Shown here one piece after another: positions 6,205 to 53,400 of a stretch of DNA of 64,000 nt. The DNA comes from Anaerolineae bacterium. Its GTDB lineage: Bacteria > Chloroflexota > Anaerolineae > Aggregatilineales > Phototrophicaceae. Position numbers and translations under genes: made by a program. Position 1 is the stretch's first letter. Every line of letters begins with the position of its first letter. The stretch is taken from NCBI GenBank assembly GCA_022841825.1, contig JALHQT010000007.1, positions 62,001-126,000 on the forward strand, in the 5' to 3' direction. The notes beneath the pieces are model-generated. The model did not search any database. It was not told where the DNA came from and was given only the letters and a program-made list of their open reading frames with translations.

Positions 6205-7164
6205 TTAGCCCGACGTGCCGCGCAGGATGTCGTCATAGAGCTGCGCTTCGTTGGCGGTGTAGAGGAAGCCGGTGATCACATCGAAGCCCGGCGGGATGCC
6301 GCTGGCTGCCATCGCCGCAATCGACAGACCCATGTACGAGGTCGCCTGTGGGTCCTGCCACTGCGCCGCGTTCACGTAGCCTTCCAGAACTTCCTGGGTC
6401 GTATCGAGCGAGTTGCCCCAGCCGACGACCGGGATTTCGCCCGGCGCAACGCCAACCTGGTCGAACACGCGCTTGATGCTGCCCGTCACCAGGTCGCCCA
6501 AGCCGATGATGGCGTCGATGTTGTCGCGGTTGGCAGTCAGGTAGTCGCTCATGCGGGTGATGATCTCCGCCTGGTCGAGCGTGGCATCGGTGACTTCGTA
6601 GGTGATGCCGAGCGGGTCAAACACGCTGGAGATGCCCTCGGTCAACTGGACGCCGTAAGTCGCGCCAGGGACTTCGACGGGCAGCCAGACGAAATCACCC
6701 GCCTCGACCAAGGCGTTATCGACCATGAACTGCGCCCAGTTGCGCCCGAAGGTGACGTTATCACCGCCGACGTAGGCGTTGAAATCGACCTGATCATCCG
6801 GCGTATTGATATTGACGACCGGGATACCCGCCGCGCGCGCTTCCGCCACGACTTCGATCAGCGAGCCGGGGTCGGGGCTGCTGGTGACGATGCCGTCTGC
6901 GCCCGCTGCGATGGCGGCGCGGATGGCTTCCTGATGCGAGGGGACGTCGCCACTGTGGAACGAGGTGCGGACTTCATTGCCCGTATCCGCTGCCCACTGT
7001 TCGGCACCGGCGAGGAAGTACGTCCAGACCGGGTCGGCGGGTGCGCCATGCGAAATCCAGTAGAAGACGCGAGCGTCCTGGGCGGATGCACCCATTGTTA
7101 TGGAGATGCCGACGAGGAGGGCGAGGACGAGCAAGAGGATCGAAAGTTTCTTACCTTTGAACAC
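6205..7164 (-). CDS. ABC sugar-type substrate-binding protein (secreted)
   Basis: 319 residues from the GTG at 7164, chosen because GGAGG lies 7 nt upstream. The frame remains open to 7191. A signal peptide (KGKKLSILLLVLALLVGISI, then ASA-QD) precedes a periplasmic-binding-protein type 1 fold. ADGIVTSSPDP and AAGIPVVNINTPDDQVDFNAYVGGD are landmarks of ribose/galactose-type binding proteins (CUT2). No lipobox Cys is visible, so it is probably secreted or anchored another way. It delivers an unidentified sugar or nucleoside to the permease at 5066-6085. Confidence 0.9.
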   Translation of the reverse strand: MFKGKKLSILLLVLALLVGISITMGASAQDARVFYWISHGAPADPVWTYFLAGAEQWAADTGNEVRTSFHSGDVPSHQEAIRAAIAAGADGIVTSSPDPGSLIEVVAEARAAGIPVVNINTPDDQVDFNAYVGGDNVTFGRNWAQFMVDNALVEAGDFVWLPVEVPGATYGVQLTEGISSVFDPLGITYEVTDATLDQAEIITRMSDYLTANRDNIDAIIGLGDLVTGSIKRVFDQVGVAPGEIPVVGWGNSLDTTQEVLEGYVNAAQWQDPQATSYMGLSIAAMAASGIPPGFDVITGFLYTANEAQLYDDILRGTSG

Positions 7165-7254
7165 GGTGGAGCCTCCATTTACCAAATACACTATATGGTT
7201 CTACCGCCCTTTAAGCCACTAAGTTGAGATCGAAGATGAGCGGGAGACGAATCG

Positions 7255-7283
7255 AGCATAACGAGGCAGCGGGGGAGTGTCAA
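7255..7283 (-). promoter_or_regulatory. Sigma-70-type promoter of the ABC importer operon
   Basis: On the minus strand, TTGACA (7283-7278) is followed after exactly 17 nt by TATGCT (7260-7255). This is near consensus and gives a 5' leader of about 80 nt before the GTG at 7164. Confidence 0.7.
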
Positions 7284-7287
7284 GCAG

Positions 7288-7316
7288 TTGGTACGAAATG
7301 CCGAATGTTCGTACAA
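7288..7316. promoter_or_regulatory. Inverted repeat upstream of the importer promoter (candidate operator)
   Basis: TTGGTACGAA and TTCGTACAA are separated by about 10 nt. They form an imperfect dyad immediately upstream of the -35 box of the importer promoter, in the region shared with the divergent HD-domain gene. It could bind a sugar-responsive regulator; no regulator gene lies beside it. Confidence 0.45.
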
Positions 7317-7432
7317 TACGCAGCCCTTGGCAACTGCCCCGCCGCCAGGGTCGCCGCGCAAGCGTGTTCAGGGACTGGCGTTCCCGGCATTTTGGCGGTA
7401 CAAGACTAACTTCATGTCAAAAGGACCCGCTT

Positions 7433-7501
7433 ATGCTCAGCAAACCCGCCGTGATCGTCGATCCGAATTTTCGCCGCACGCTGCCAGCGGACAAAACGTA
7501 G
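7433..7501 (+). pseudogene. 22-codon ORF with good ribosome site, in frame with the HD gene
   Basis: AAAAGGA sits about 8 nt before an ATG that opens a 22-codon frame containing KPAVIVDPNFRR and ending in TAG. The next codon is the ATG of the HD-domain gene in the same frame. The peptide resembles, from memory, the first residues of D-isomer 2-hydroxyacid dehydrogenases, so it may be the stub of a displaced gene that now supplies translation initiation. It may also be a leader peptide. Readthrough would add 23 residues to the HD protein. Confidence 0.4.
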
Positions 7502-8089
7502 ATGATGGACACCGACACCGCACTGCGCTTCCTGCACTTCTTCCATGAGGCGGAACGGCTGAAGAACACGTTTCGCACCTCGTGGACGACAGGCGGTCAG
7601 CGCGAAAGCACTGCCTCGCATACCTGGCGGCTCTGCCTGATGGCGGTGGTGCTGGAACACGAACTGCCCCAGGTTGACATGGCGCGGCTGCTCAAGATTT
7701 GCATCGTGCATGACCTGGGCGAAGCGATCAGCGGCGACATCCCCGCCATCCACCAGGACGCCAATGCCCCGAAAGCCGCGCGTGAACGCCAGGATCTGCT
7801 GACGCTGCTCGCGCCGCTGCCGGAAGCGACCCAGAGCGAGATCGTCGCGCTGTGGGACGAGTACGAAGCAGCGGCGACGCCGGAGGCGCAGATCGCCAAG
7901 GCGCTCGACAAGCTGGAGACGCTGCTCCAGCACAATCAGGGTGCGAACCCACCCGATTTCGATTACGTCTTCAACATCGACTATGGGCGCAGGTTCACCG
8001 ATGCCGTGCCGCTCGCCGCCGCGCTGCGCGTTCTGATCGACGAACAGACGCGCCGTCACGCCGTCGACCACAATGGGTATACGGGCTAA
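7502..8089 (+). CDS. HD-domain phosphohydrolase (YfbR/HDDC2-like nucleotidase)
   Basis: 195 residues. The metal-binding HD signature is complete: His40 in SHTWRL, His70-Asp71 in IVHDLGEA with Glu74, and a distal Asp in KALDKLETLLQH. Length and motif spacing fit the YfbR/HDDC2 group of 5'-deoxynucleotidases. The gene follows the 22-codon frame directly (TAG-ATG) and has no separate ribosome site, which suggests translational coupling. A role in nucleotide-pool control would fit the neighbouring salvage-like genes but is not shown. Confidence 0.85.
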   Translation: MMDTDTALRFLHFFHEAERLKNTFRTSWTTGGQRESTASHTWRLCLMAVVLEHELPQVDMARLLKICIVHDLGEAISGDIPAIHQDANAPKAARERQDLLTLLAPLPEATQSEIVALWDEYEAAATPEAQIAKALDKLETLLQHNQGANPPDFDYVFNIDYGRRFTDAVPLAAALRVLIDEQTRRHAVDHNGYTG

Positions 8090-8117
8090 CTGCCCTGCTG
8101 CGTTAGAAACAGGTATT

Positions 8118-8291
8118 GATCAGATCAATCCGAGGTTCATAACCATCCACAAGAGGTTACGATCACTGGTGGGATCGTTCCGGGGGCATAGGGGGGCGAG
8201 ATCGGATCACGATCATTCATGTGGGTTATGCTGGGTTAAGTTGGGAAATGATCAAGGAACGATCAAGACCCTCCATCGATCTTGATCGATC
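8118..8291. other. GATC-dense non-coding segment
   Basis: Twelve GATC sites start at 8118, 8123, 8161, 8173, 8200, 8205, 8211, 8250, 8261, 8278, 8284 and 8288, against under one expected by chance. The gap 8090-8434 holds no convincing gene. GGATCGTTCC near 8172 and GGAACGATC near 8256 form partial inverted copies. A Dam-type GATC methylase is encoded at 21570. A weak DnaA-box-like CCATCCACA occurs near 8143. Confidence 0.7.
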
Positions 8292-8434
8292 CGACCGCCC
8301 TGCTGTGGGTGCCCAACCATCTACCAGCAGCGGAACGCCGTACTCGCGAATGAGAAAGGCGCGAGAACGCCCGCGATTGCGCAAAGAGGTGATGTGGGGA
8401 GAGCCGCGACGCTCCCCCCGCACTCTTCTGCTTC

Positions 8435-9733
8435 TCAGAATCCCTCCGCCTCATACGTGATGCCGGGGAAGCTGACCGTATCCGGCGCGAGCGCAGCGTG
8501 GGCGGCTTCATCGCCCTTGAGCACATCGAGCAGGAACGCCGTCGTGAAGTGGTTGATCAGGTCGTGCGCGCGATCCATATCCCAGACGGGATCCGACCAG
8601 TTGGGCCACAAATCGTTCCATGCAGACGCAGGATAGCGACTGTATGAATCAACAAAAATATAGTGACCTGCTGATTGAAATGTCATGACCGCCTTCCGTG
8701 GGCTTGCCAGATTCGAGAAAAATTCGTCCAGCGCGAAATCGGCGAGAAAATCGTCTGCATCCACGGCCATGATCAGCACCGGTACGGTCATATCTGCCGC
8801 CCCTTCTGCGCCGAAGAGGTATATGGGGCCGTCAAGCGATACGATGGCATCCACGCGGTCATCACCGAGAGATGGCCACAGTCCGGCTGGCACCTCCTGG
8901 AGTCCAGCCAGCGTCGCGACCTGAGGCCACATGCGCTCTCCATAATCGCAGTCCGCACTGGCGATCATCACGGCAGCGGAATTTGCGGACAACCGTCCGC
9001 TCTGCATGGCTATTGCCTGGTTGGCTTTCAATTCGGTGCACCAGGCAGATTGAGATGCAGGGTTGATTTGTGCGCCACCTGCCTCGAGCGCAGTCTGTCC
9101 GCCCGCCGAGTGTCCGATTACGGCGACATGCTCAACGTCAATCAACCCTTCTAGATCACCTCCGGATGCTGTGAGCGTTTCCGCATAATCGATCTGGTAT
9201 GATGCATCCTGCGGGCGGGTGATAGCCATTTCAAAGCGCGCGCGCGCGAAGTCTTCTACCGTCCATTCCACGGTCGTCGATGAGCTGCCGACGTGATCGA
9301 CCGAGAAGACGACAAACCCACGCGATGCCAGGTGCTCGGTGAGAAAGGTGCTCTGCTCGCGATACATGAAGAAGCCGTGGGAGAAGACCACCAGCGGATA
9401 CGGGTCATTCTCCACGTTAGGCGCGGCATCGCGGATAGCGCGTCCAGTGATGATCATCGGAATCCGCGATGTCATTAACGCGATGTCATACTGGATGACA
9501 TTGTCCGTCCTGTCTGGATTGAGCGCCGGATACCAGACCCTCAATGGTAAGTCACGGTCTTCGGTTTCGATGACGTACTCGCGCGTGCCAACGGCGTATC
9601 TGCCCGGATGTGCAAGAGACGGCGCATCCGGACGCCATCCGGACACCAGAGGACCCTCCTCCTGCGCTGCCGACGGCAAGGCGAACGCCAGCAGCAGGAG
9701 CACTATCATCAGCAGTCCAATATGACGTTTCAT
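8435..9733 (-). CDS. Secreted alpha/beta-hydrolase (PAF-acetylhydrolase/dienelactone-hydrolase-like)
   Basis: 432 residues. A signal peptide (MKRHIGLL through ALPSAAQ) is followed by an alpha/beta-hydrolase fold. FSHGFF near 118 is an oxyanion-hole-type motif, and the nucleophile elbow GHSAGG carries Ser209. Candidate acid and base residues lie in the later segments AVDADDF and SAGHYIF. The layout resembles platelet-activating-factor acetylhydrolase-like esterases; the substrate is unknown. The 5' end, including the ribosome site and signal peptide, is in a 91-bp repeat shared with the next gene. Confidence 0.85.
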   Translation of the reverse strand: MKRHIGLLMIVLLLLAFALPSAAQEEGPLVSGWRPDAPSLAHPGRYAVGTREYVIETEDRDLPLRVWYPALNPDRTDNVIQYDIALMTSRIPMIITGRAIRDAAPNVENDPYPLVVFSHGFFMYREQSTFLTEHLASRGFVVFSVDHVGSSSTTVEWTVEDFARARFEMAITRPQDASYQIDYAETLTASGGDLEGLIDVEHVAVIGHSAGGQTALEAGGAQINPASQSAWCTELKANQAIAMQSGRLSANSAAVMIASADCDYGERMWPQVATLAGLQEVPAGLWPSLGDDRVDAIVSLDGPIYLFGAEGAADMTVPVLIMAVDADDFLADFALDEFFSNLASPRKAVMTFQSAGHYIFVDSYSRYPASAWNDLWPNWSDPVWDMDRAHDLINHFTTAFLLDVLKGDEAAHAALAPDTVSFPGITYEAEGF

Positions 9734-9747
9734 GAGCTTGTCCTTTC
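9657..9747 (-). repeat. Leader/signal-peptide cassette, copy 1 (91 bp)
   Basis: 88 of 91 positions match the copy at 10762-10852. It spans the ribosome site AAAGGA, the start codon and the codons for the signal peptide up to its cleavage region. Beyond it, the two proteins are unrelated. Confidence 0.9.
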
Positions 9748-9782
9748 CAGTAGAGCGTTATGACCACGCAGCGCGAAGGCAT

Positions 9783-10838
9783 TCACTGACGTGTGATCGT
9801 GCCAACGGCGACCGAAATATCGAACGTATTTGTGCTTTTCGTGTAGTGGGTGCTATAGAGATGGTGAATGCCGTCCGAGACTACAACTGAACTCGGACTG
9901 AAACCTTGGTCTTCTGCTGTCAGGATCGGGGCATCACTGTATCGTGCCCAATCGATACCATCGGCACTTGTGGCATATCCGACACCTGGATAGGTGAATG
10001 TGCCGTATCCAACATCTTGAAAGACGTAACCAGTCCCACTATAAAACATCTCGAAAATACCATCACCCACTCGCACAACGGGCAAAGCGACAAGACCCGC
10101 ATCCCATGCATCCACTTCCGTGAGAAACACCGGGTCGCTTGCTGCAAATCCCTCTTCCGTAGTGAGTGGGTCGTCATACTTGACCCAATGCACACCATCC
10201 TCGGAGACTGCTGTGCCTATTCCTCCACCGTTGTAGAATGGACCAGTCTCCGCCTGCCCCTGAAGCAGCGTATAGTAAAGTACATAACCCTCATCAGTTT
10301 GGAACACTGAGTCAACTTCAAGCCCATCATAGAAATCCCAATCCGTCTGTGCGCCGACGCTGAGAACGGGCTCCGCGTCAATTATCCACGGACCGGTTGG
10401 TGAGGTTGCAGTCGCCCGCATGACGTTGTCGGCAATACCGTTGCCCTCAGATGGTGTGAAGTACATGACCCAGGTGTCGCCGTCCAGCATCTCGAAGTGG
10501 CTGATCACCCCACGGCGCGCAGATGGGTCCTCAAGGGTGAACACCGGATTGCCCTCGTATTTTGTCCACGTCAAGCCATCATCGGAAGTCGCGTAGCCAA
10601 CAGAAATCTCCACCGAGCGCCAGCCGCTGTAGAACATGTGGAACATGCCGTTGGCATACGTGACTCGTGGGAAACCCACACCAGACGCGTCCCATGCTCC
10701 CGATTCTCCGGTGCTCAGGACGGGATTCCCCTCATAGGGAGTCAGATCGACGGAGATCGCGTCCTCCTGCGCTGCCGACGGCAAGGCGAACGCCAGCAGC
10801 AGGAGCACTGTGAGCAGCAGTCCAATATGACGTTTCAT
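9783..10838 (-). CDS. Secreted five-bladed beta-propeller glycosidase-like protein (GH43/GH32/GH130-like)
   Basis: 351 residues. The signal peptide is nearly identical to that of the preceding hydrolase. The mature part has repeated blades with YEGNPV, FYSGWR, VGYATSDDGLTW and a second FYSG...VGYATSADGIDW, the pattern of five-bladed propeller glycosidases and phosphorylases. The acidic residues cannot be assigned to one family. Its base composition looks lower in GC than its neighbours, a sign of possible transfer. The start at 10838 has AAAGGA about 7 nt upstream, inside the repeated cassette. Confidence 0.75.
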   Translation of the reverse strand: MKRHIGLLLTVLLLLAFALPSAAQEDAISVDLTPYEGNPVLSTGESGAWDASGVGFPRVTYANGMFHMFYSGWRSVEISVGYATSDDGLTWTKYEGNPVFTLEDPSARRGVISHFEMLDGDTWVMYFTPSEGNGIADNVMRATATSPTGPWIIDAEPVLSVGAQTDWDFYDGLEVDSVFQTDEGYVLYYTLLQGQAETGPFYNGGGIGTAVSEDGVHWVKYDDPLTTEEGFAASDPVFLTEVDAWDAGLVALPVVRVGDGIFEMFYSGTGYVFQDVGYGTFTYPGVGYATSADGIDWARYSDAPILTAEDQGFSPSSVVVSDGIHHLYSTHYTKSTNTFDISVAVGTITRQ

Positions 10839-10852
10839 GAGCTTGTCCTTTC
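10762..10852 (-). repeat. Leader/signal-peptide cassette, copy 2 (91 bp)
   Basis: Partner of 9657-9747 with three mismatches clustered in the signal-peptide core. Both copies end just upstream of the ribosome site, so no promoter is clearly included. Confidence 0.9.
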
Positions 10853-10875
10853 AAACGCGCATATCCAGAAAAAAG

Positions 10876-10912
10876 AACGAGCGTTACCCGCTGCTGCGCG
10901 GTAACGCTCGTT
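10876..10912 (-). terminator. Rho-independent terminator downstream of the MMPL exporter
   Basis: Perfect 13-bp stem (AACGAGCGTTACC / GGTAACGCTCGTT) with an 11-nt loop. On the minus strand it is followed by CTTTTTTCT. It lies 143 nt past the exporter stop and only about 38 nt before the next minus-strand start codon (10838), so that gene's promoter must overlap it, or the hairpin acts as an attenuator. Confidence 0.85.
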
Positions 10913-11054
10913 TGCCACTATGATTCAACTGTTGCGAGTGCCGTTTGCGAACAGCGCGTATCTCGCCACCTGCGCTCTGTATCGCTGCCTACATCATACT
11001 CCCGTAATGCGGATCGTTATCTTGTGCAAAATACCAGAATTTGCGTGGTGCTCG

Positions 11055-13643
11055 CTACGCCCCAACGGGCGACCGCACTGCTTCCGGCGTTTCGGTCGCC
11101 CCCTCGCGGCTCAACGCGCCGGGCCACCATGCCCACCTGCCGAGCAGCACCGTGATCGCCGGAACCAGCATCGTGCGCACCACGAAGGTATCGACCAGCA
11201 CACCGAACGCCACCGCAAAGCCGAGCTGAATCAGCCCTGTGATGCTGCCGGACATCAGCGCGCCAAAGGTGCCTGCCAGGATGACGCCCGCCGAGCTGAT
11301 GATCGCGCCCGTCGCGGCGACGGCGTGATGCACGCCTTCGCGCGTGCCGTGCGTATGCACTTCTTCCTTGACGCGCCCGATCAGGAAGATGCTGTAATCG
11401 ACGCCGAGCGCGACCAGGAAGATGAAGGTGAAGAACGGCATATACCACGACAGGCTCTCGACGCCGAACAGCGCGCGGAAGACGACATCCGTCAGCCCCA
11501 GCGTGAAGGCGTAGGTGATGACGACCGTCAGGATCAGGTAGATCGGCGCGATCACGCTGCGCAGCATCAGCAGCAGGACGATGAAGATACCGCCGATCAC
11601 GAAGCCCATCGTGCGCACGAAGTCGCGGTTCATCGTCTCGCGGATGTCGGCGATGATGGCGGGCTGCCCGGTGAGGGCAGCGGTATCCTGTCCTCCATAC
11701 TCCGCCAGGATCGCGCGAATTTCATCGACCGTGTCGAGCGCCTCGACGCTGTTCGGGCTGACGTTGAGGATGACGCTCAGACGGTACGCCGTGCCTTCCT
11801 CCGCCACATACTGCGCGTTGAGCTGGTCGAGCAGCCCCGCCTGGCTGGCGTCGCCCGCCGCCAGCAGCGGAGCAAGCGCCGACGGCATGAGCGTGGCGTC
11901 GGGCAGCGCGTCGAAGGTCGCCGCCAGCCCTTCCAGCGACGTGCGCAGCGAGTCCTGGCTGGCGGCAAGCAGCAGCGGGTTGGCGAACAGGTCTTGCAGC
12001 GTCGTCAGATTCTCGTCGTCCGCAACTGCCGGGAAGCGCTCGGCGAGCAGCGCCACATACTCGCTGAAAGCGTTGAGCGTGGCGACCAGGCTCTCAAGGT
12101 TGAAGCTCAAGCCCGACGCGCCTGTACTTCCCGTGCCCGGCAGATTGCTGGCGATCAGCCGGAGCTGACCGCTGACCTGCGTCAGATCGCGGAAGGGCGC
12201 GTTTTGCCCCAGCGGATCGTCGAGGCTGCGCACATCGCCGACGGTCGGCAGCGCCAGCAGCCGCGCACTCAGCGCGTTCATCTCGGCGGCGACCCCTTCG
12301 GCAGCGCGCTCGCGCATCACGATGTTGAGCGGCGCAATCGTGCCCGCGCCGAAGTTATCGCGCACCAGGTTGTAGCCGATGACCGAGCCGCTGTTCTCTG
12401 GCAGGTCGGCGAGCAGATCGTAGTTGAGCGTACTGCTCACGCCGTAGATCGCCAGCGGCAGCATGAGGGCGATGATGATTATGATGGAAAGCACGGGGCG
12501 GCTGCTGACCATCTGCGAGATGACACCGTAGAAACGCCCGGTGGCATGATGCGAGGCTTTGGCGGGCCAGAAGGCGCGCGTGCCCAGCAGCGCCAGCAGC
12601 GCCGGGACGAACGTGATGCCGACCAGCAGCATGACGACGATGCCGAGCGCCAGCACCGGACCCGACGTGTTGAACAAGCCCATCTCGGCGAAGCTCATCG
12701 CCATGAAGCCGACAAAGATCGTCCCGGCGCTGCTGACCAGCGTCTCGCCCACCTGGGCAATCGTGCTGGTCGTCGCCGTCTTCGGCTCCGGCGTATCCGC
12801 CATCTCCTCGCGGAAGCGGCTGATCAGGAACAGGCAGTAATCGGTGCCCGCGCCGAACAGGATGACGACCAGCAGCACATTGGCGTAGGTGCTGATCGGC
12901 ATACCCAGGCTGCCGAGGATGCCGACGATGCCCTGGCTGATGATGTACGCCAGCACGACGGCGATCAGCGGCAGCAGCGGGCTGACGGGTGAGCGGTAGA
13001 TGACCAGCAGCAGGACGACGACCAGCACAACCGTCACCCACAGCGTGCTGTCGGCGGTCTCCTGCCCGGACTGCGCCGTGCTTTGCGAAATGGCGAGCGC
13101 GCCTGTGATGTAGGCATTCACGCCGTCGACGGTGTGCTCTTCGAGATAGGTTTCGAGCGCGTTGTAGAGCGCCTCCCCATATTCCAGATCGCCCAGCGCG
13201 ATGTTGACGAGCGCGACGCTGTTGTTTTGCGCGACCAACTGCTGCACCAGCAGCGGCGAATCGAGCGGTGCGATGATCTGGTCGATGTAGGGTGCGAGTT
13301 CGCTCGCCTCCAACCACGCCTTCAGATCGGCAATCCAGCGCCCGGCGGGCGTAGCGGTCTGCGCGGCAAAATCGGCGGCGGCGGTGTCAAGGATGCCCGC
13401 CTCTGCCTGGACGACGACCAGGAAGCCGCCTGCCGAGTTGTCGTTCGGGAAGGTGCGGGCATAGACTTCGCCCGCCTGACGAAACGGCGCATCCGCCGGG
13501 AGGAAGGTGCTGAGGTCAGAGGTGGTGTAATCGGTGATGCGCGGCGCGAAGACGCCGATGCCCACCGCCAGCAGCAGCCAACCAACGACGACTGGCAGGC
13601 GATAGCGGGCGGCGAACGCGCCCAGAGTGCGGTAGAACGACAA
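11055..13643 (-). CDS. MMPL/RND-family exporter
   Basis: 862 residues with two repeats, each a first transmembrane helix, a large extracytoplasmic domain and a five-helix bundle. The proton-relay motif of the MMPL family appears once per repeat: GAGTDYCLFLISRFREE and GVDYSIFLIGRVKEE. Such proteins export lipids or hydrophobic compounds. The start is TTG at 13643 with AAGGA about 9 nt upstream. It is a single-gene unit bounded by the terminator at 10876-10912 and a repeat-rich gap. Confidence 0.9.
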   Translation of the reverse strand: MSFYRTLGAFAARYRLPVVVGWLLLAVGIGVFAPRITDYTTSDLSTFLPADAPFRQAGEVYARTFPNDNSAGGFLVVVQAEAGILDTAAADFAAQTATPAGRWIADLKAWLEASELAPYIDQIIAPLDSPLLVQQLVAQNNSVALVNIALGDLEYGEALYNALETYLEEHTVDGVNAYITGALAISQSTAQSGQETADSTLWVTVVLVVVLLLVIYRSPVSPLLPLIAVVLAYIISQGIVGILGSLGMPISTYANVLLVVILFGAGTDYCLFLISRFREEMADTPEPKTATTSTIAQVGETLVSSAGTIFVGFMAMSFAEMGLFNTSGPVLALGIVVMLLVGITFVPALLALLGTRAFWPAKASHHATGRFYGVISQMVSSRPVLSIIIIIALMLPLAIYGVSSTLNYDLLADLPENSGSVIGYNLVRDNFGAGTIAPLNIVMRERAAEGVAAEMNALSARLLALPTVGDVRSLDDPLGQNAPFRDLTQVSGQLRLIASNLPGTGSTGASGLSFNLESLVATLNAFSEYVALLAERFPAVADDENLTTLQDLFANPLLLAASQDSLRTSLEGLAATFDALPDATLMPSALAPLLAAGDASQAGLLDQLNAQYVAEEGTAYRLSVILNVSPNSVEALDTVDEIRAILAEYGGQDTAALTGQPAIIADIRETMNRDFVRTMGFVIGGIFIVLLLMLRSVIAPIYLILTVVITYAFTLGLTDVVFRALFGVESLSWYMPFFTFIFLVALGVDYSIFLIGRVKEEVHTHGTREGVHHAVAATGAIISSAGVILAGTFGALMSGSITGLIQLGFAVAFGVLVDTFVVRTMLVPAITVLLGRWAWWPGALSREGATETPEAVRSPVGA

Positions 13644-13781
13644 AATGGGGAGTCCTTGTCTTTGGCGAGCGTTGTGTGACGGATAATTGCCATTATACGC
13701 CCGCAGACGAGGGAGGATAGATTAAGGGTGCAGGGCGAACGAATCAAACTGATTTAAGCGCAAACTGACCCCTCCCCCTAG

Positions 13782-13953
13782 CCCCCTCCTGACAGGGGTA
13801 GGTATTTCGTACAACCCCTCACCCCAACCCCTCTCCCTTAGGGAGAGGGGCTTAAGAAGACTCTTCTGCCCCCCTTCGCCCTGACGCACAAGCGGAAGGG
13901 GCTGGGGTTGAGGGTAAACGGACAACAAAACACCCACCCCTGTCAGGAGGGGG
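13782..13953. repeat. Long inverted repeat with internal hairpin in gap 13644-13965
   Basis: 22-nt arms at 13782-13803 and 13932-13953 match at 21 of 22 positions when inverted. Between them lies a hairpin, CCCCTCTCCCTtAGGGAGAGGGG-like, of the same CCCTCACCCC family found inside murG and near 36500. The 322-bp gap holds no gene that I can support. Confidence 0.8.
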
Positions 13954-13965
13954 TTGGGGAGGCGT

Positions 13966-14694
13966 TTATGGTGTCGTGGGCGTAGGTCTCTCCAACGCAT
14001 CCGCCAGGATCGGCAGGATCGTCTCATCGTCATCGGCGGTGCTGGTCAGGTCGTTGTCGTAGGCGGCGAAATCGACCACTGGGTAGTAGGGACCTTCTGC
14101 CTGTAAGGGCGTCGGCGTCAGTTCATCCGCCCCGCTGCCGTTGATGTCGATGATGAGATCGCCCGTGCCGATGATCTGCACTTCGCCGTTGGGGTCCGTC
14201 ATCTCGCTCAGCGCCAGGAAAAGCGAGTCCAGATCGTCGGTGCCCCGCGTGACGCCATCGGCGGCGACGGCGGACAGCTCATCGGCGAAGTAGAACTGCG
14301 TCGTCAGCACTTCCAGATCGCCGACGAAGACCTTGACGTGAATGTGTGTCGGGCGTCCTTCATATGCCAGCGGTTTGAGCGTCAAGAAGGCATAGTAGCC
14401 ATCGGCATCAGTCGTCGCCGCGCCGAAATACTGGAAGCCCTCGACTCGTTGGTCAGCGCTGCTGTCGTTAGGATGATCGTAGCGTCCGTTGATATCAGTA
14501 TGCCAGATTTCGACACGCGCCCCGTCGACAGGCGTGCCGTCGGTAGTGAGCACCTGCCCCTGAATCTGGATCGGCTCGCCAGCGGCGACCGTGAGGGCGG
14601 CGTCGGCGCTGTCCTGCGCGAATGCCGCGCCACCAGAGACGAGCGCGCTCATGACGAGCAGCGGGACAAGCAGGGAGATGTGTAAGCGTTTCAC
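13966..14694 (-). CDS. Secreted intradiol ring-cleavage dioxygenase-like protein, apparently circularly permuted
   Basis: 242 residues from the GTG at 14694 (AAAAGG 9 nt upstream; the frame is open to 14784). A signal peptide ends AFAQ. In the frame numbered from 14784, all four non-haem iron ligands of the family are present: Tyr102 (GRYDHP), Tyr141, His147 and His149 (AYEGRPTHIHV). The motif that normally opens the domain, EGPYYP followed by DNDLT, is found at the C-terminus (about 230-247). This points to relocation of the N-terminal arm. Substrate unknown; probably catechol-like aromatics outside the membrane. Confidence 0.82.
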   Translation of the reverse strand: MKRLHISLLVPLLVMSALVSGGAAFAQDSADAALTVAAGEPIQIQGQVLTTDGTPVDGARVEIWHTDINGRYDHPNDSSADQRVEGFQYFGAATTDADGYYAFLTLKPLAYEGRPTHIHVKVFVGDLEVLTTQFYFADELSAVAADGVTRGTDDLDSLFLALSEMTDPNGEVQIIGTGDLIIDINGSGADELTPTPLQAEGPYYPVVDFAAYDNDLTSTADDDETILPILADALERPTPTTP

Positions 14695-45798: not shown

Positions 45799-47472
45799 CT
45801 ACAACTTATCCACCAGCGTATCGATGAAGTCCTCGTCGATGGTCGAGCCTTTTTGCAGCACCTTCTCGACCTGCCCGCTCAGGCGCTCGCGGTCGCTGGC
45901 GGTCAGCTCCTTGGCGGTGATGACGACAATCGGGATGCTCTGCAATTCGGCGTCCGCCTTCATCGCCTCGATGACCGTGAAGCCATCGACATCCGGCATC
46001 ATCAGGTCGGTGATCACCAGGTCGGGCTTATCGCCGATCAGCATTTGCAGCCCGACGCGCCCATCACTCGCCAGCATCACCTCGTACCCGCGCGCCACCA
46101 GCAGCCGCTGGAGCAACCGCGCGGCATCCGGGCTGTCTTCGATGACGGCGACACGCCGGATCTTGCCCTCGATGTGGTCAAGTGCGCTCATCAGCTTGTC
46201 TTCCGGGAGCTGCGGGCTGGCGAAGCTGCGCTGCACATCGACCTGCCGCTGCCACTGCTCGCCCAGGATTTCGCGCTCGACCGGCAGCGTGTGCCCGCTG
46301 ACGTTGACGACCACCACCTCGTCCGGATGGATGACCCCCGCCTGCACCATCTTGTACAGCCCGGCGAACGTCACCCCCGTCGCCGGCTCGACCGAAATAC
46401 CCTCCAGCCGCGCGACCGTGCGAATGGCGTCGAACGCCTCCTCATCACTGGCATCAGCGAAGGTGCCGCCGTTCTCGCGCACATAGTCATATAGCAGTTC
46501 ATAGGCGCGCCCAGGATTGCCGGTCGCCAGCGTGGCGATGACGGTCTGCGGGTCGGTCACGGGCGTGGCGATGCGCTGCCCACGCACGAAGGCGTCCACC
46601 ATCGGCGCGCAGCCGGTCGATTGGATGATGCCGAACTTCGGCAGGCGGTCGATCAGACCCAGCGCGTGCATCTCGCGGAAGCCCTTGGCGACCCCGATAG
46701 GACCCATGCCGCCGCTGACCCCCTGCAGGAACCAATCCGGGGCGCGCCAGGGGGCACCGATGACCTCTTCTTCGCCCAAATCCTGCGCGATCTCGTATGC
46801 CATCGTCTTCATCGCTTCGATGGCGGCGACGCTCTTGATCCCCCGGTCGAGGAAGACGCCCTTGCTCTTGGCAAAGCGCGCGGCGATCTCCTTCGTTTCA
46901 TCGTACGTGCCGCCGATCTTGATGACCTCCGCGCCATACAGTGCCGCCTCGCGCATCTTGGCACCCGGCGTGCTGGCGGGGAAGAACGCCCACAGCTTGA
47001 TCCCCGCGCGCGCGCAGTACGCGCCATAGGCGATGGCGACGTTGCCCGTGCTGGCGACGACGACCTCGTCCACACCGATCTCGCGCATCGCCGAGATCGC
47101 CACCGTCGCCTGCCGATCCTTGAAGCTGTTGGTCGGTCCCTGGCGTTCGTCCTTCAGATACAGGTTGCGCAGCCCCAACATGCTCGCCAGCGCCTGCGAT
47201 TTGATCAGCGGCGTGCCGCCCTCGCCCATCGTGACGATGTTGTGCGTGTTATAGATCGGCAGTACCTCGTGGTAGCGCCACAACGTATGGCGGCGCTGAG
47301 TGAGCGCCGCCTGCCAGGATCTTGCATCGATTTGGTCGAGGTTGTATCGCGCCTCGAGGATGTTTTCGCCACATCGCGGGCAGCCTGCCACATGCTTATC
47401 CAGGGGCACACGTTCGCCGCAGTGCAGGCATTCCAGGTCGATATGGCGTGTCGTATTGGTCTGCAAACTCAA
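45799..47472 (-). CDS. Threonine synthase fused to a response-regulator receiver domain
   Basis: 557 residues. Residues about 12-40 are a zinc ribbon (Cys15, Cys18, Cys31, Cys34). About 75-425 are a PLP-dependent threonine synthase with GEGGTPLI, NSFKDRQ (Schiff-base Lys118) and VVASTGNVAIAYGAY. About 438-557 are a receiver domain: AVIEDSPD acidic pocket, phospho-acceptor Asp489 in VITDLMMPDVDG, Thr519-Ala520 and Lys541. Its TTG start overlaps the stop of the giant kinase (TTGA). Phosphorylation control of threonine synthesis is inferred. Confidence 0.92.
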   Translation of the reverse strand: MSLQTNTTRHIDLECLHCGERVPLDKHVAGCPRCGENILEARYNLDQIDARSWQAALTQRRHTLWRYHEVLPIYNTHNIVTMGEGGTPLIKSQALASMLGLRNLYLKDERQGPTNSFKDRQATVAISAMREIGVDEVVVASTGNVAIAYGAYCARAGIKLWAFFPASTPGAKMREAALYGAEVIKIGGTYDETKEIAARFAKSKGVFLDRGIKSVAAIEAMKTMAYEIAQDLGEEEVIGAPWRAPDWFLQGVSGGMGPIGVAKGFREMHALGLIDRLPKFGIIQSTGCAPMVDAFVRGQRIATPVTDPQTVIATLATGNPGRAYELLYDYVRENGGTFADASDEEAFDAIRTVARLEGISVEPATGVTFAGLYKMVQAGVIHPDEVVVVNVSGHTLPVEREILGEQWQRQVDVQRSFASPQLPEDKLMSALDHIEGKIRRVAVIEDSPDAARLLQRLLVARGYEVMLASDGRVGLQMLIGDKPDLVITDLMMPDVDGFTVIEAMKADAELQSIPIVVITAKELTASDRERLSGQVEKVLQKGSTIDEDFIDTLVDKL

Positions 47473-50400
47473 TTATCCCCGTTGTGTTTCGACAACTGGT
47501 CTTTCACATTGTCCAGGAAAACCCGCTGCCCTTCCATATCAATGTCTGGCTTGTAGATGACCTTCATCTCCGAAAGCTGCGAGATTTCGTGCTGGTTGAG
47601 CGTATCGCCCGTCACCACCATAATCGGGATGTCGGCGGTTTCCGGGTTGCTGCGCAGCTCCTGAATGACCTTGAAGCCATCCATCTCCGGCATCCGCAGG
47701 TCGCAGATGACCAGGTCGGGTCGGCGGCGCGCCACCATCGATACCCCCTCGACGCCATTGGCGGCATGGTAAATGCGGAAGCTGCCGGTTTCGCCCAGCA
47801 GGTCTTTCAACAGTCGGGCGCTCTTGTCGTCATCGTCAATGATCAGAATGCGCTCGATACGCGCTGCCTGTTCCGCCTCGCGCGTCGCATCCGCCAGCGT
47901 TTCCGGCATGAACGGCTTGCGAATGAAGCGGAACGCGCCGAGGTTATGCGCGCGCTGTGTCTCTTCCGCCAGCGATAGCACGATGATCGGCGTATCCACC
48001 GTATCGTCGCGCCCCTGGAAGCGCTCCAGCAGCGCCCACCCGCTGTGGCTGGCGAAATCCGCGTCCAGCACGATCAGCGTCGGACGCAGCCCGCTCGCCA
48101 TCGCTTCCGCCTCCATCGCCGTCGAAACGGTGAAGACCTCGAAGCCTTCCCGCTGAAGTGTGCGCCGGAGCTGATCGACCAGGTCGAGGTTGTCTTCGAC
48201 CAGCAGGATCTGCCGCTTGATATGAACCGGCGCGCGACGCCGCACCGGGATGAACTGCCTGGCAGTATCCTGGCTGGCGCTGCCGCCGTTTTGCGCAACA
48301 CGTTCCGGCGTCGCCTCCGGTGCGGGCGCGGCGGTATCACCGCCCATCGCCGCCAGCACATGCGGCGGCAGCGCGTTCGGGTCAAGCCTGCCTGTCTCGC
48401 CCGTCGGATGCTTGTCGGGTTCGGCACCTTCTTGCAGATCGCTCGCCTCTGGCTCCACCGGAATGGGTGCCGACGGGATACGGATGCTGAAGGTCGAGCC
48501 GACGTTGACGGTCGATTCGACCAGGATCGTCCCGCCCTGCATCTCCATCAGCGACTTGGCAATCGGCAAGCCCAAGCCTGTGCCGCCATGCGTCTTCGTC
48601 AGCGATGAATCGACCTGACGGAACGCCTCGAACAGCAGCGGCAGGTCTTTGTTGGCAATCCCCATCCCCGTATCGACGACATCAATCGCCAGCATGTCAA
48701 CACCGGAATGCAGATCGCCCGTCCGGTAAGCGTTGATCGTGATCGACCCCTCGTCGGTGAACTTCGCGGCGTTCGACACCAGATTGAGCAAGACCTGGCG
48801 CATTCGGAACTCGTCACCGTATGCCTTCGGCAGCCCCGGTTCCAGGTGGACGGTAATCTCAATCGGCTTGTCCTTGACCAGACCGATCCCAATCGAACGC
48901 ACCCCATCGATGACGGGCTTCAGATCGAAGTAGTCGATCTGCATGTCCATCTTCCCTGCCGCGATCTTCGCCTGGTCGAGGATGTCGTTGATCAGGTTGA
49001 GCAGATGCTGACCACTGTTGTAGATCGTGCTCAGATCCTGCTCCTGCATCTCGGTCAGCGGACCATCAATCCCCTTGAGGATCACGCGGCTGAAGCCGAT
49101 GATCGAGTTGAGTGGCGTGCGGAGTTCATGGCTCATGTTCGCCAGAAAATCGCTCTTCAGGCGGTCGAGTTCGACAAGTTGCTCGTTGGAGCGCTGCAAG
49201 TCCTCAAGGAGCTGCTGGTTCTGGACCGCCGCTGCCAGCGATCCAGACAGCGTGAGGATCAGCGTCAGCGCGTCATCTTCGAAAGCGTCGTCGCGTTCGT
49301 CTTCGATCACGATCAGCGCCACAAGTTCGTTGCCCAGCGTCAGCGGCACCAGCATTGCCGCGCCCGCGTTGCTGACAACCGGCAGGTAGCGCGGCTCCTG
49401 GCTGAGGTGATTGACCACCATCGGGCGACGATCCAAAGCGGATTCCGCCAGCAGGTTCGTCGGGTCATCCAGCCGCACCTGCGAAATCTCGGAAAGCGGC
49501 ATCAACGTGCCGGAGACCGCAGCCGGGCGCAGCTCCGTGATCGTCGTCTCGCCATCGCTCAGGAGGATCGGCAGGTAGATGGACACCGATGCCGCGTTGA
49601 GCAGTTCCTGGAGCGAGTTGACGATGTTGGTCGCCGCATCCTCGACCGTTTCTGCCCCGGATGCCGCCGACGCGACCGTGAAGAGGAAGTACATGTCTTT
49701 CGCGCGCGACTGCGATTGGTCGTACAACTGGGCGTTGTCGATGGCAACACTGATCTGCGCTGCCAGCGTCGTCAGGACGGTCACATCGTCGTCGTTAAAG
49801 AAGTTCGACTGATTGGACTGCACGTCGAGCGCGCCGATGACCGCGCCCTTGAGGATCAGCGGCACCGCCATTTCCGAGCGCGTCTTGGGCAGCAGCGGGT
49901 TGGGACGATGCGGCACTTTTGAGCTTGCGGTGTCGAGCGCGATCACTGGCTCGCCCGACGCCGTCACACGCCCGATGACCGACGGTGAGCCTTTTTCCAG
50001 CTTATGGTTTCTGGCGAGCAGTTTTTCGCCCGCTTCGCCCGTGCTGGCACGCAGGACTGCGAAGCGGTCGTCGTCGTCCATCAGGAAAATCTGTGCGTGG
50101 TCATAGGAGAAGGCGTCTTTGATCATCTCGACGATGGTGGGCAGCAGTCGCGGCAGTTCTTCCAGCGTACTGGCGAGCTGGCTGACGCGCGCCGACGTGA
50201 CCAACTGACGCTCGCGGCGCTGCGTCTGCGCCAGCAGGCGGGACGCTTCTAGACGCAGGGACGCCTGACGGGCGAACGAACGATAGACGCGCAGGTTCGC
50301 TTCCTCGTAGACATACGGCAGATCCGAACTCAGCAGGAGAATGCCCAGCGCCCGATCGGACGACCGCAGCGGCAGCACGCTGAACGCAGCGATCCCCAGG

Positions 50401-53400
50401 TTGATCAGGCTGATCCGTGCAGGTTCATCCAGCCGCGCGTCGGTCATCACGTTTTCGATGGCGACCACATCGGTGACATCGAAGACGGACCAGGCGGGGA
50501 AGTCTTCCCGCTCCAGCGTAATCCCCGTCAGGTCTGGGATTGCGGAGTCCTCGGGCTGCCATGATGCTGTCACCGTCAGCACTGCACCCGCCTCCTGCCA
50601 GCCGCGCTCATTGAGCATCAGGACCATCGCGCGCGTGATCGAGCTGTCGAGCAGGTGTTCGACGAAGGCAGTGAGGATATCGCGCTCAGAGACCGCATCG
50701 CTCAGGTCTCGGCTCGCCAGGTAGAGCATACTGGTCTCAGTCAGGTTCGACTGAATCTGATCGAGCAGGAAGAGGTTATCGGTGACGACCGAAGCGCTGT
50801 CCGCCAGTGAGCGCAGGTAGCGCGACACATTCTCATTTTGCGACTGCGGCGTGTGATAGGCGGTGACGAGGCTGCCCATCAGCGTGTTCTGACCGCGCAG
50901 CGGGGTGACCATCAGCGAGCGGATGTTGCCCAGCGCTTTGATCAATGCCCGGATCGGGTCGTCCGCCGCGAGCAGGTCGACATCCGGCACCGCGTAAATG
51001 TCCTGGAGATCGCCCAACGCGACCAGAATATTCGTGAAGTCGATGGGTCCGTTGTCCATGCTGACGCTGAAGACCTCGCTCATCGTCCCATCACGCAGGG
51101 CATAAGCAGCATGGCAATCGGGCTTGAGCCACATCAACGCCGCATCCAGCGCCTGCATCAGATCGTCCTGGCTGCCGGCGCGGCTGAGTGCCGTCGTCGC
51201 CGAATACAGCGAAGCCGTTTCCGCCAGCGCCGCTTCGGTACTGATGATCAGGTAGCGGTTGTCGAGCGTGACGGCGGCGCTTTCGACCAGCGTCGTAAAC
51301 GCCTGTTCGCGCTCCAGCGAGAACATCTGCGGTGTGCTGAACGTCAGCACCGCCCAGCCCAGTACCGAATTGTCACGCGCGCGCGAACGCATCGGCAGCA
51401 CCACCAGCGCAGCGATCCCTTGTGCCTGAAGCGCAGCTTTGTCCTCCGCCGCCATCAGTTTGGAGCTGGAAACATTGCCGATGAACTGGGATTGGATCGC
51501 CGCAAACAGTCGATCCGGCAGCGACACCGTATCGGTCTGCGTGTTGAGCGAACGGGCAAGACGCAGCCCATTCTCCTCAGTCATCAGCAGATAGACCTCA
51601 TCCGAGTTTTGCAGCGAGAGCTGGAACATGATCAGATCCAGCACATCCTCGACCTGAGCCGCTTCCGAAAGCGCGCGCGTCGTCTCGTAGAGCGTGATCA
51701 TCTCACGCAGGTTATCTTGCAGTGTGTCTTCCAGGTTGCGCAGGGTGCTGATGTTCTGGAAGGCGACGATGACCGAGTGGATGTTTCCACGCTCGTCGAA
51801 CAGAGGTGCCGCGTTCAGCAGCAGGTCGATCTCGGTGCCGTCCGGTTGAATGATCGAGACGTCATCGCTAAACGCGCCCTTGCCATTCTTCAGCGCTGCA
51901 TAAATTGGCAGTTCCGAAACCGGATACAGCACATCGGTACCTGTGCGCCGCAGGTTGTACGCCTCGACTGTGAACATCGCGTTCGGGTCAATCGGTCGCC
52001 CCATCAGTGCCTGCGCCTGCTCGTTGTGGCTACTGGGGCGCAAACTGCGACCATCCAGCACCATGACACCCACGGGCAGAGTATTGAGAATATTCTGAAG
52101 GGTTTCGCGCTCAAGTTCCGCGCTGCGCAGCAGGCGGCGGTTTTCCAGCGCGACCGCGATCTGCGAGGCTAGCGTGACGACCAACTGCTCATCGTCCTCG
52201 TTGATGTCGTCGGAGTAGAGATAACGTCCGAAGAAGAGGACACCGAGGACCTCATTCTGGACACGCACAGGAGCAGCAACATGCTTCCCCAACTCCGCGC
52301 GCGCATCGGGCGAGAGGTTCGCGAAAGCCGCATAACCGGATGGGTCGTTGACGATGACCGCCTTGCGGCTGTGGAACGCATCCATGATCGAATGCTGGAC
52401 TGTGTGAACGCCGTAGCGGGTGCTGCGGGTGATTTCGGCACGCGGCATGTACGCCGTGACTTCCTCCAGCCATTCCCCGCTTTCATCGCGCAGCAAGAGC
52501 TGCCAGGTGTTGAAATCGCCAGCATCGGCAATTCGGCTGAAGACTTCGTGCAGGCTCGACCCCAGGTCTGCGCCCACGCGGTTGGCGACCTGCCCGGCTT
52601 CGGCGAGCGCGATGGCACGCCGCGCCTGCGCCTGTGCTTCGTTGAACGATTGCAGGCTGTCAATGGCGACTGCAAGCTGGTCGGCGACCGCCTGAGTAAA
52701 GGGTACTGCCTGGGCGCTGAACGAGTCGATCTTATCGCTTTCCAGGATCAGCACGCCCAACCAGCGCTGACGTGTTTGCAGCGGGACGATCAGGACGCTG
52801 CCACTGTCGTTCTTATCCAGCCAGGACAGCAGCCCTGTCAAACCGAGCGGGGGCAGCTCATCTTTCGGGCGGTTGTAACGCAGCGCCGCGCGATAAGCAT
52901 TGAACAGACGCCCAAACGGGATGATGTCGGTGCTGATGCGCAGCGCGGGCGTGTTGGTCTGCGTGACCTTCGACCAGTCGTAGGCATTGGTGACAAAAGG
53001 TGCGTCATACGACTCATTCCCTTTCGTCAGCCAGATCGAGGCGCGCGAGAGCAGCGGCGAGGTATGGATCAGCGGGTCGATGGCTGCCGCGTAGATGGCG
53101 TCTTCGGTATCGGCTGCTGCGATGGCGCGGCTGGCATCATACAGGCGGCGGGTTTCGTCGAGCGCCTGCGCGGTCTGTTCGAGCAGGCGACGGTTTTGCA
53201 GCACCGTGCTCATCTGCCCGGTCAGCGCACGGTAGATTTCCAGGTCATCCGCCACGACCGAGCGCGGTTCTTCGCTGACGACAAAGAAGAGCGCGATCGG
53301 TTGGTTGGCGCTGTAAAGCGGGAAGACCATGCCAAACCGGTAGCGATGGTGACGCATGTAGCGGGCGAAGTCGCTCGTTCCCACTTCGCGGCTGTCCAGG

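Follow-up and report, generated by a model that had tools for sequence, protein, structure and literature searches.

Local recombination at gene ends as the probable source of a leader common to a tandem-array hydrolase and an unrelated propeller gene in Chloroflexota

Two neighbouring genes of a Chloroflexota genome, one for an alpha/beta hydrolase and the other for a protein predicted to be an unrelated five-bladed propeller, were found to carry nearly the same leader. Based on comparisons with related loci, we consider it probable that this likeness arose by local recombination at gene ends, most simply gene conversion, into which unrelated neighbours in hydrolase arrays, the propeller gene being one, have been drawn.

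A near-identical leader on two neighbouring genes

The window, i.e., the whole 64,000-nt stretch of DNA analysed (G000:C7:62001-126000), belongs to a source genome of 5.9 Mb, referred to as G000. It contains a direct repeat of 91 nt (9657-9747 and 10762-10852) in which 88 of the 91 bases (97%) agree, and the two copies, 1105 bp apart from start to start, lie in the same orientation and are read on the minus strand. Each copy starts with 14 nt of RBS region, continues through the ATG into the signal peptide and breaks off within codon 26. The features concerned are as follows.

10869-10909, minus strand: terminator-like hairpin with a T run, 30 nt upstream of the start of the propeller gene
10762-10852, minus strand: leader copy 1 (propeller gene: RBS region, start codon, signal peptide)
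9783-10838, minus strand: propeller gene, 351 aa, predicted GH130/GH43-like five-bladed fold
9734-9782, minus strand: spacer between propeller and hydrolase genes, 49 bp, its last 14 bases being part of leader copy 2
9657-9747, minus strand: leader copy 2 (hydrolase gene: RBS region, start codon, signal peptide)
8435-9733, minus strand: hydrolase gene, 432 aa, PAF-AH_p_II-like

Both signal peptides begin with MKRHIGLL and, judged by eye, resemble those of the Sec type. The hydrolase was matched by PAF-AH_p_II (52.4 bits, above the Pfam cut-off of 20), and its translation has GHSAG, in agreement with G-x-S-x-G, the nucleophile elbow motif of alpha/beta hydrolases. The propeller stayed below the Pfam cut-off (GH32N, 20.7 vs. 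22.1 bits). Its structure model, built from 6 sequences (pLDDT 78, pTM 0.81), has five blades, and in a structure search against the PDB only, the best solved matches were GH130, GH117, GH43 and putative glycosidases, the Foldseek comparison with a GH130 phosphorylase giving E = 3.5e-13 and TM-scores of 0.63 (query) and 0.74 (target). On this model, the protein is a glycoside-hydrolase-like five-bladed propeller, unrelated to the hydrolase.

The repeat of 88/91 bases over RBS, start codon and signal peptide, as described in the initial annotation, was thus recovered at the same positions. Its statements that homology ends at the mature proteins, and that these are an alpha/beta hydrolase and a beta-propeller glycosidase, also stood: the repeat stops in codon 26, the proteins are unrelated, and their identities agree with Pfam for the hydrolase and with the predicted fold for the propeller.

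No tRNA was found in the window and no Rfam match in 7000-14000, and a promoter scan of 8300-11100 returned one site, the chance mean being 1.5. Elsewhere in the window, 47469-56294 (minus strand) codes for a hybrid histidine kinase of 2,940 residues in which two receiver domains and six or more GAF stretches were recognised, and 45799-47472 (minus strand) is a single reading frame that combines a PALP domain, of pyridoxal-phosphate enzymes, with a response-regulator receiver domain, a pairing that is to our knowledge unusual.

Distribution of the leader

In a search of the whole G000 genome with the window leader, for which 40 of 73 first-look candidates were scored, the second copy was recovered with E = 2.5e-37 and the next match had E = 0.05, so that chance is excluded as the source of the repeat. 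Since the only two copies in G000 lie on neighbouring genes, the leader is no genome-wide cassette, and the further copies before other secreted genes for which the initial annotation had proposed a search did not appear in this genome. The proposal of gene conversion or cassette capture therefore survived in its local form only: local exchange fits, but a mobile cassette does not, as there are two copies only and, in the genomes compared, leaders matched only where the genes are adjacent.

When a hydrolase leader of G032, a genome of the same genus, was used as query against 98 genomes of the family, it matched in the G032 array itself, hydrolase h1 (95%), a partial copy at the contig end (96%) and the propeller leader (80%), and its identity to the two copies of the window was 86% and 84%. 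Of the 98 genomes, 23 had at least one match at E ≤ 0.01, all matches outside both array loci being weaker than E = 1e-6; the best of these (E = 4e-6) covered 58 nt on the signal peptide of a G096 gene, and the second best (E = 7e-5) covered 31 nt at the start of a beta-lactamase-like gene of G032. Self-comparison of 1.6 Mb (27%) of G000 gave 42 start-to-start pairs lacking other protein similarity. Among the 14 pairs inspected, only the window pair covers a plausible start and signal peptide, and most of the others were, by appearance, repeats within over-long reading frames. One of the inspected pairs, C1_129/C1_146, has a common N-terminal stretch plus about 700 nt upstream.

Among 154 genomes of the order, 28 were found to carry the propeller (E ≤ 1e-20) and 43 the hydrolase (E ≤ 1e-40); a comparison by eye of the places listed put 13 genomes in both groups, and only in G000 and G032 are the two genes adjacent. 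Propeller and hydrolase leaders match within the genome in both of these, and no such match at E ≤ 0.01 was found in any of four genomes in which the genes lie apart (G009, G016, G051 and G059), part of their hydrolases being taken into the comparison. As for the hydrolase family itself, 37 of the 39 named relatives retrieved with its alignment bear Chloroflexota names (Anaerolineae, Aggregatilineales, Caldilineaceae, Litorilinea etc.), the other two being labelled Planctomycetota and Trueperaceae.

Leader comparison with a second locus of the genus

The genes of G032 run in the order propeller, hydrolase h1, hydrolase h2, after which contig C32 ends in another leader. Comparison of the four leader types identified seven sites (-3, 13, 28, 49, 61, 62 and 66) that split by genome and none that split by gene, sites 13 and 28 falling where the G032 propeller leader aligns poorly. 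The leaders of the window propeller and window hydrolase differ at 3/91 positions, those of the window hydrolase and the G032 hydrolases at 14/91, and those of the two propellers at 24/88. Over codons 12-26, the within-genome differences were 0/44 in the window and 3/44 and 4/44 in G032, and the between-genome differences were 6/44 for the propellers and 7/44 and 6/44 for the hydrolases. Over 97-98 nt, the G032 propeller leader is 80-81% identical to those of its own hydrolases. Two observations count on the other side: the first half of this leader differs from the G032 hydrolases at 15/44 and 16/44, which speaks against exchange and is read by us as a patchy tract, and no hydrolase tail lies behind the propeller of the window or of G032, which speaks against an exchange of array ends. 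The initial annotation had named as adverse to its proposal the combination of only two copies with homology running well into the mature regions of relatives; the copies are indeed two only, but the homology in G032 does not run into the mature parts.

Starts with MKRH were found in hydrolases of three genomes (G000, G032 and G011), whereas all 13 other propeller leaders compared, from 12 genomes, lack them, which makes the hydrolase the likelier leader donor; judging from these sequences, the transfer likely ran from hydrolase to propeller. Because the 13 other propeller leaders look, by eye, like signal peptides of their own, the leader would have been replaced rather than secretion gained, and the earlier suggestion that new proteins gain secretion in one step was not sustained.

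A one-off event with no continuing exchange, either a short duplication (e.g., by template switching) or a single substitution of the propeller for a hydrolase body, would agree with the presence of only two copies in G000 and with a block that is sharply bounded at the RBS and codon 26. However, a single event before the split fails to explain both genomes, given the likeness of the G032 propeller leader to those of its own hydrolases and the difference of 3/91 within the window pair vs. 14/91 between the hydrolase leaders of G000 and G032. A pair of independent one-off events would explain both, and altogether we regard a one-off origin as unlikely.

Conserved ends and divergent middles of the tandem hydrolases

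Tandem hydrolases with repeats at the gene ends occur in several genomes, and the last codons of the window hydrolase are those of the array 3' end (..TTAFLLDVLKGD..YEAEGF). Between h1 and h2 of G032, identity is 92% in the leader, 81% in the tail and 53% in the middle. In G017, one gene pair has a common leader and other pairs have common tails, indicating that the two gene ends move separately.

Fourfold sites were compared in ten within-genome array pairs, picked after the loci had been inspected and with the L192 pair left out. These pairs lack independence, as four G017 genes on two contigs supply six of them. Agreement was 42/73 for the leader, 115/166 for residues ~28-62, 208/645 for the body and 190/253 for the tail; only two of the pairs (one from G032, one from G017) have a common leader, at 93%. 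The corresponding values for nine pairs with related bodies across genomes were 9/36, 56/147, 364/938 and 102/222. Elsewhere in the order, in other families, two pairs of genes from one locus each were compared, of which only that of G098 is new, that of G120 having already been seen as L192; they agreed at 45/57 in the tail, 23/35 in residues ~28-62 and 39/134 in the body. In G110, where the two genes lie on different contigs, the bodies are alike too (60/116). Within-genome copies are thus more alike at their ends, synonymous sites included, as in concerted evolution, and not in their bodies.

The body tree joined the window hydrolase with a G017 gene (100/99), G032 h2 with another G017 gene (100/100) and a G013 gene with a G009 gene (100/100), the union of G032 h1 with a third G017 gene reaching only 57/72, and it rejected the tested within-genome groups (AU p = 6.5e-4, 1.1e-6 and 2e-63). 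Together with the fourfold sites, these cross-genus groups indicate that several middles are older than the genera and that the ends are younger. The tail DNA tree, which has low power, did not reject the cross-genome pairs (p = 0.05-0.41) and did not join the tails of G032 h1 and h2. Recent tandem duplication with a fast-changing middle was rejected on the grounds that fourfold agreement in the body, where the middles are saturated, is no higher in the array pairs (208/645) than over all cross-genome pairs (6349/19748) and that closer body relatives occur in other genera.

Tandem genes with repeated spacers, and repeats that flank single hydrolase genes in several loci, would also suit a site-specific system, such as integron-like cassettes or a phase-variable expression site, that moves bodies or leaders. 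The common stretch, however, contains coding sequence at either end, and every gene comes with an RBS and start of its own, which makes such a system very improbable. Selection for the same signal peptide and RBS without recombination would fit two genes with Sec-type-like starts and hydrolase leaders that are hydrophobic and similar in kind, but it is hardly credible for 88/91 bases, third codon positions included, at the E-value of the second copy, when other propeller and hydrolase leaders of the family lack a DNA-level match. Creation or homogenisation of the repeat by the assembler, to which draft assemblies and a G032 contig ending inside a repeat copy might point, deserves next to no credence in view of the same order and common leaders in two separate genomes of differing sequence and of window genes that are both complete and in frame.

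Further repeats were observed around this family. Long reading frames with internal repeats matching the hydrolase, perhaps fused tandem hydrolases, occur in L201, L207 and L209, and direct repeats of 50-114 nt flank or lie near single hydrolase genes in L097, L107, L112, L113, L119 and L216, those of L097 and L119 containing the hairpin described below.

Unrelated genes carrying hydrolase ends

On G032:C69, a beta-lactamase-like gene (PF00144, 114.6 bits), cut by the contig start, has the last ~22 codons of a hydrolase behind its stop codon. A DUF4397 gene of G013 lies between two hydrolases and has behind it a hydrolase fragment made up of the final ~13 codons plus the spacer. On G032:C8, a PAF-AH-like gene and an Abhydrolase_1 gene have 199 nt of spacer and N-terminus in common (79%); as alpha/beta hydrolases, though of different Pfam families, the two could be distant kin, and part of the spacer repeat recurs before a beta-lactamase-like gene and further genes. 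These end fragments would be consistent with body replacement or end exchange across unrelated genes.

A second cluster was noticed at G032:C8:134000-152000 (L314/L315), in which hydrolase-like and other genes have an N-terminus in common (..KRGCLFY.KRG..) and several of the spacers hold a repeat of 55-75 nt. Three long tandem genes upstream of it presumably resemble MalT-type regulators.

The hairpin upstream of the propeller gene

The first 31 bases of the window hairpin are identical to those of a hairpin before a hydrolase on contig C3 of G000, and the hydrolase at C7:38120 is preceded by a variant of it. A motif scan of 1.6 Mb of G000 returned just three sites, one ahead of the propeller and two ahead of hydrolases, which would not suit an ordinary terminator. 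No such hairpin precedes the window hydrolase, and its 49-bp spacer holds no terminator-like site. From these matches before hydrolases, the propeller seems to hold a hydrolase-type 5' region larger than 91 bp.

In an alignment of ten such hairpins, 93% of the cells were paired and three pairs had changed on both sides; among 500 shuffles, 94 reached the two-sided pair count and none reached the covariation score. The E-values of the hairpin model R1 in G000 are not independent, as its three strong matches there were training rows. In 98 genomes, R1 gave eight non-training matches at E < 1e-4, two of which were placed by coordinates alone: two lie before hydrolases, three before other genes with signal-peptide-like starts (SnoaL-like, GH26, and one with a sub-cut-off CshA match only), one behind a hydrolase and two behind other reading frames. 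R1 does, however, also match ordinary gene ends, and it gave no match at E ≤ 0.05 in 12 other propeller loci (L091 left out) and the G032 array. A loose hairpin scan was positive for 16/35 hydrolase upstream regions vs. 53/299 control genes.

The hairpin may act in ending upstream transcripts or in gene control. As a tentative extension that we hold to be unlikely, a 5' module of hairpin, RBS and signal peptide might pass by recombination between secreted-protein genes of these Chloroflexota, with array positions as expression-and-export sites that receive unrelated enzymes and the hairpin as a common attenuator.

In L094, L095, L096, L098, L099 and L112, a conserved TACTTTAGTA..CTACAC stretch, perhaps a promoter or operator, lies upstream of the hydrolases, 55-80 nt before the start, instead of the hairpin.

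Proposed mechanism

The reading that we favour is recombination at gene ends. The hydrolase is one of a family that stands in tandem arrays in Chloroflexota, and recombination between neighbours would keep copying the gene ends, i.e., the RBS and signal peptide at the 5' end and, at the 3' end, the final ~45-60 codons together with the spacer. Too divergent to recombine, the middles would stay distinct, and non-homologous genes landing in an array would be drawn into the exchange. The propeller gene would be such a gene: its 5' region would be of hydrolase type, and its leader would have been re-homogenised with that of the hydrolase behind it once the lineage had separated from that of G032. 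The molecular step is probably gene conversion, and co-transcription may occur.

If true, this would be a natural bacterial case of homologous exchange that is confined to gene ends and crosses non-homologous neighbours, and a system in which to measure the minimal shared sequence for exchange and the spread of leaders and 5' control regions. It would also be a warning for annotation that a signal peptide may have a history unlike that of its protein.

Comparison with known systems

Concerted evolution and the swapping of secretion signals are already known kinds of change, and the bacterial array form with non-homologous neighbours was not found in the titles and abstracts searched. In mycoplasmas, clustered families of variable surface proteins carry a conserved 5' end on differing bodies and switch by DNA inversion at an expression site. 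The hydrolase arrays resemble them in the conserved 5' end and differing bodies of clustered genes, but nothing tested in the arrays points to inversion.

Terminal reassortment of type III effectors was reportedly described by Stavrinides et al. in 2006. According to PMC6460904, it places an N-terminal secretion signal on otherwise unrelated proteins, and the window pair, with a common N-terminal signal on two unrelated mature proteins, is in this respect of the same kind. In contrast to the type III signals of dispersed genes, the leaders here look like those of Sec type, belong to direct neighbours and appear to have been made alike repeatedly.

Long-lasting concerted evolution in prokaryotes, with paralogs within a genome more alike than orthologs and recurrent gene conversion inferred, is described as rare and as affecting whole gene families (26 genes) in PMC6053082. 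Unlike those cases, only the gene ends are affected here, partly between non-homologous genes.

The Hessian fly SSSGP-1 tandem cluster (PMC2955719) combines a conserved promoter, UTRs and signal peptide with strongly differing mature parts, and concerted homogenization of the ends has been proposed for it. The hydrolase arrays likewise consist of tandem genes for secreted proteins with conserved ends and different mature parts. In contrast to the small salivary proteins under positive selection in that insect, however, the arrays encode bacterial enzymes whose middles are old and common to several genera, and they include a non-homologous neighbour.
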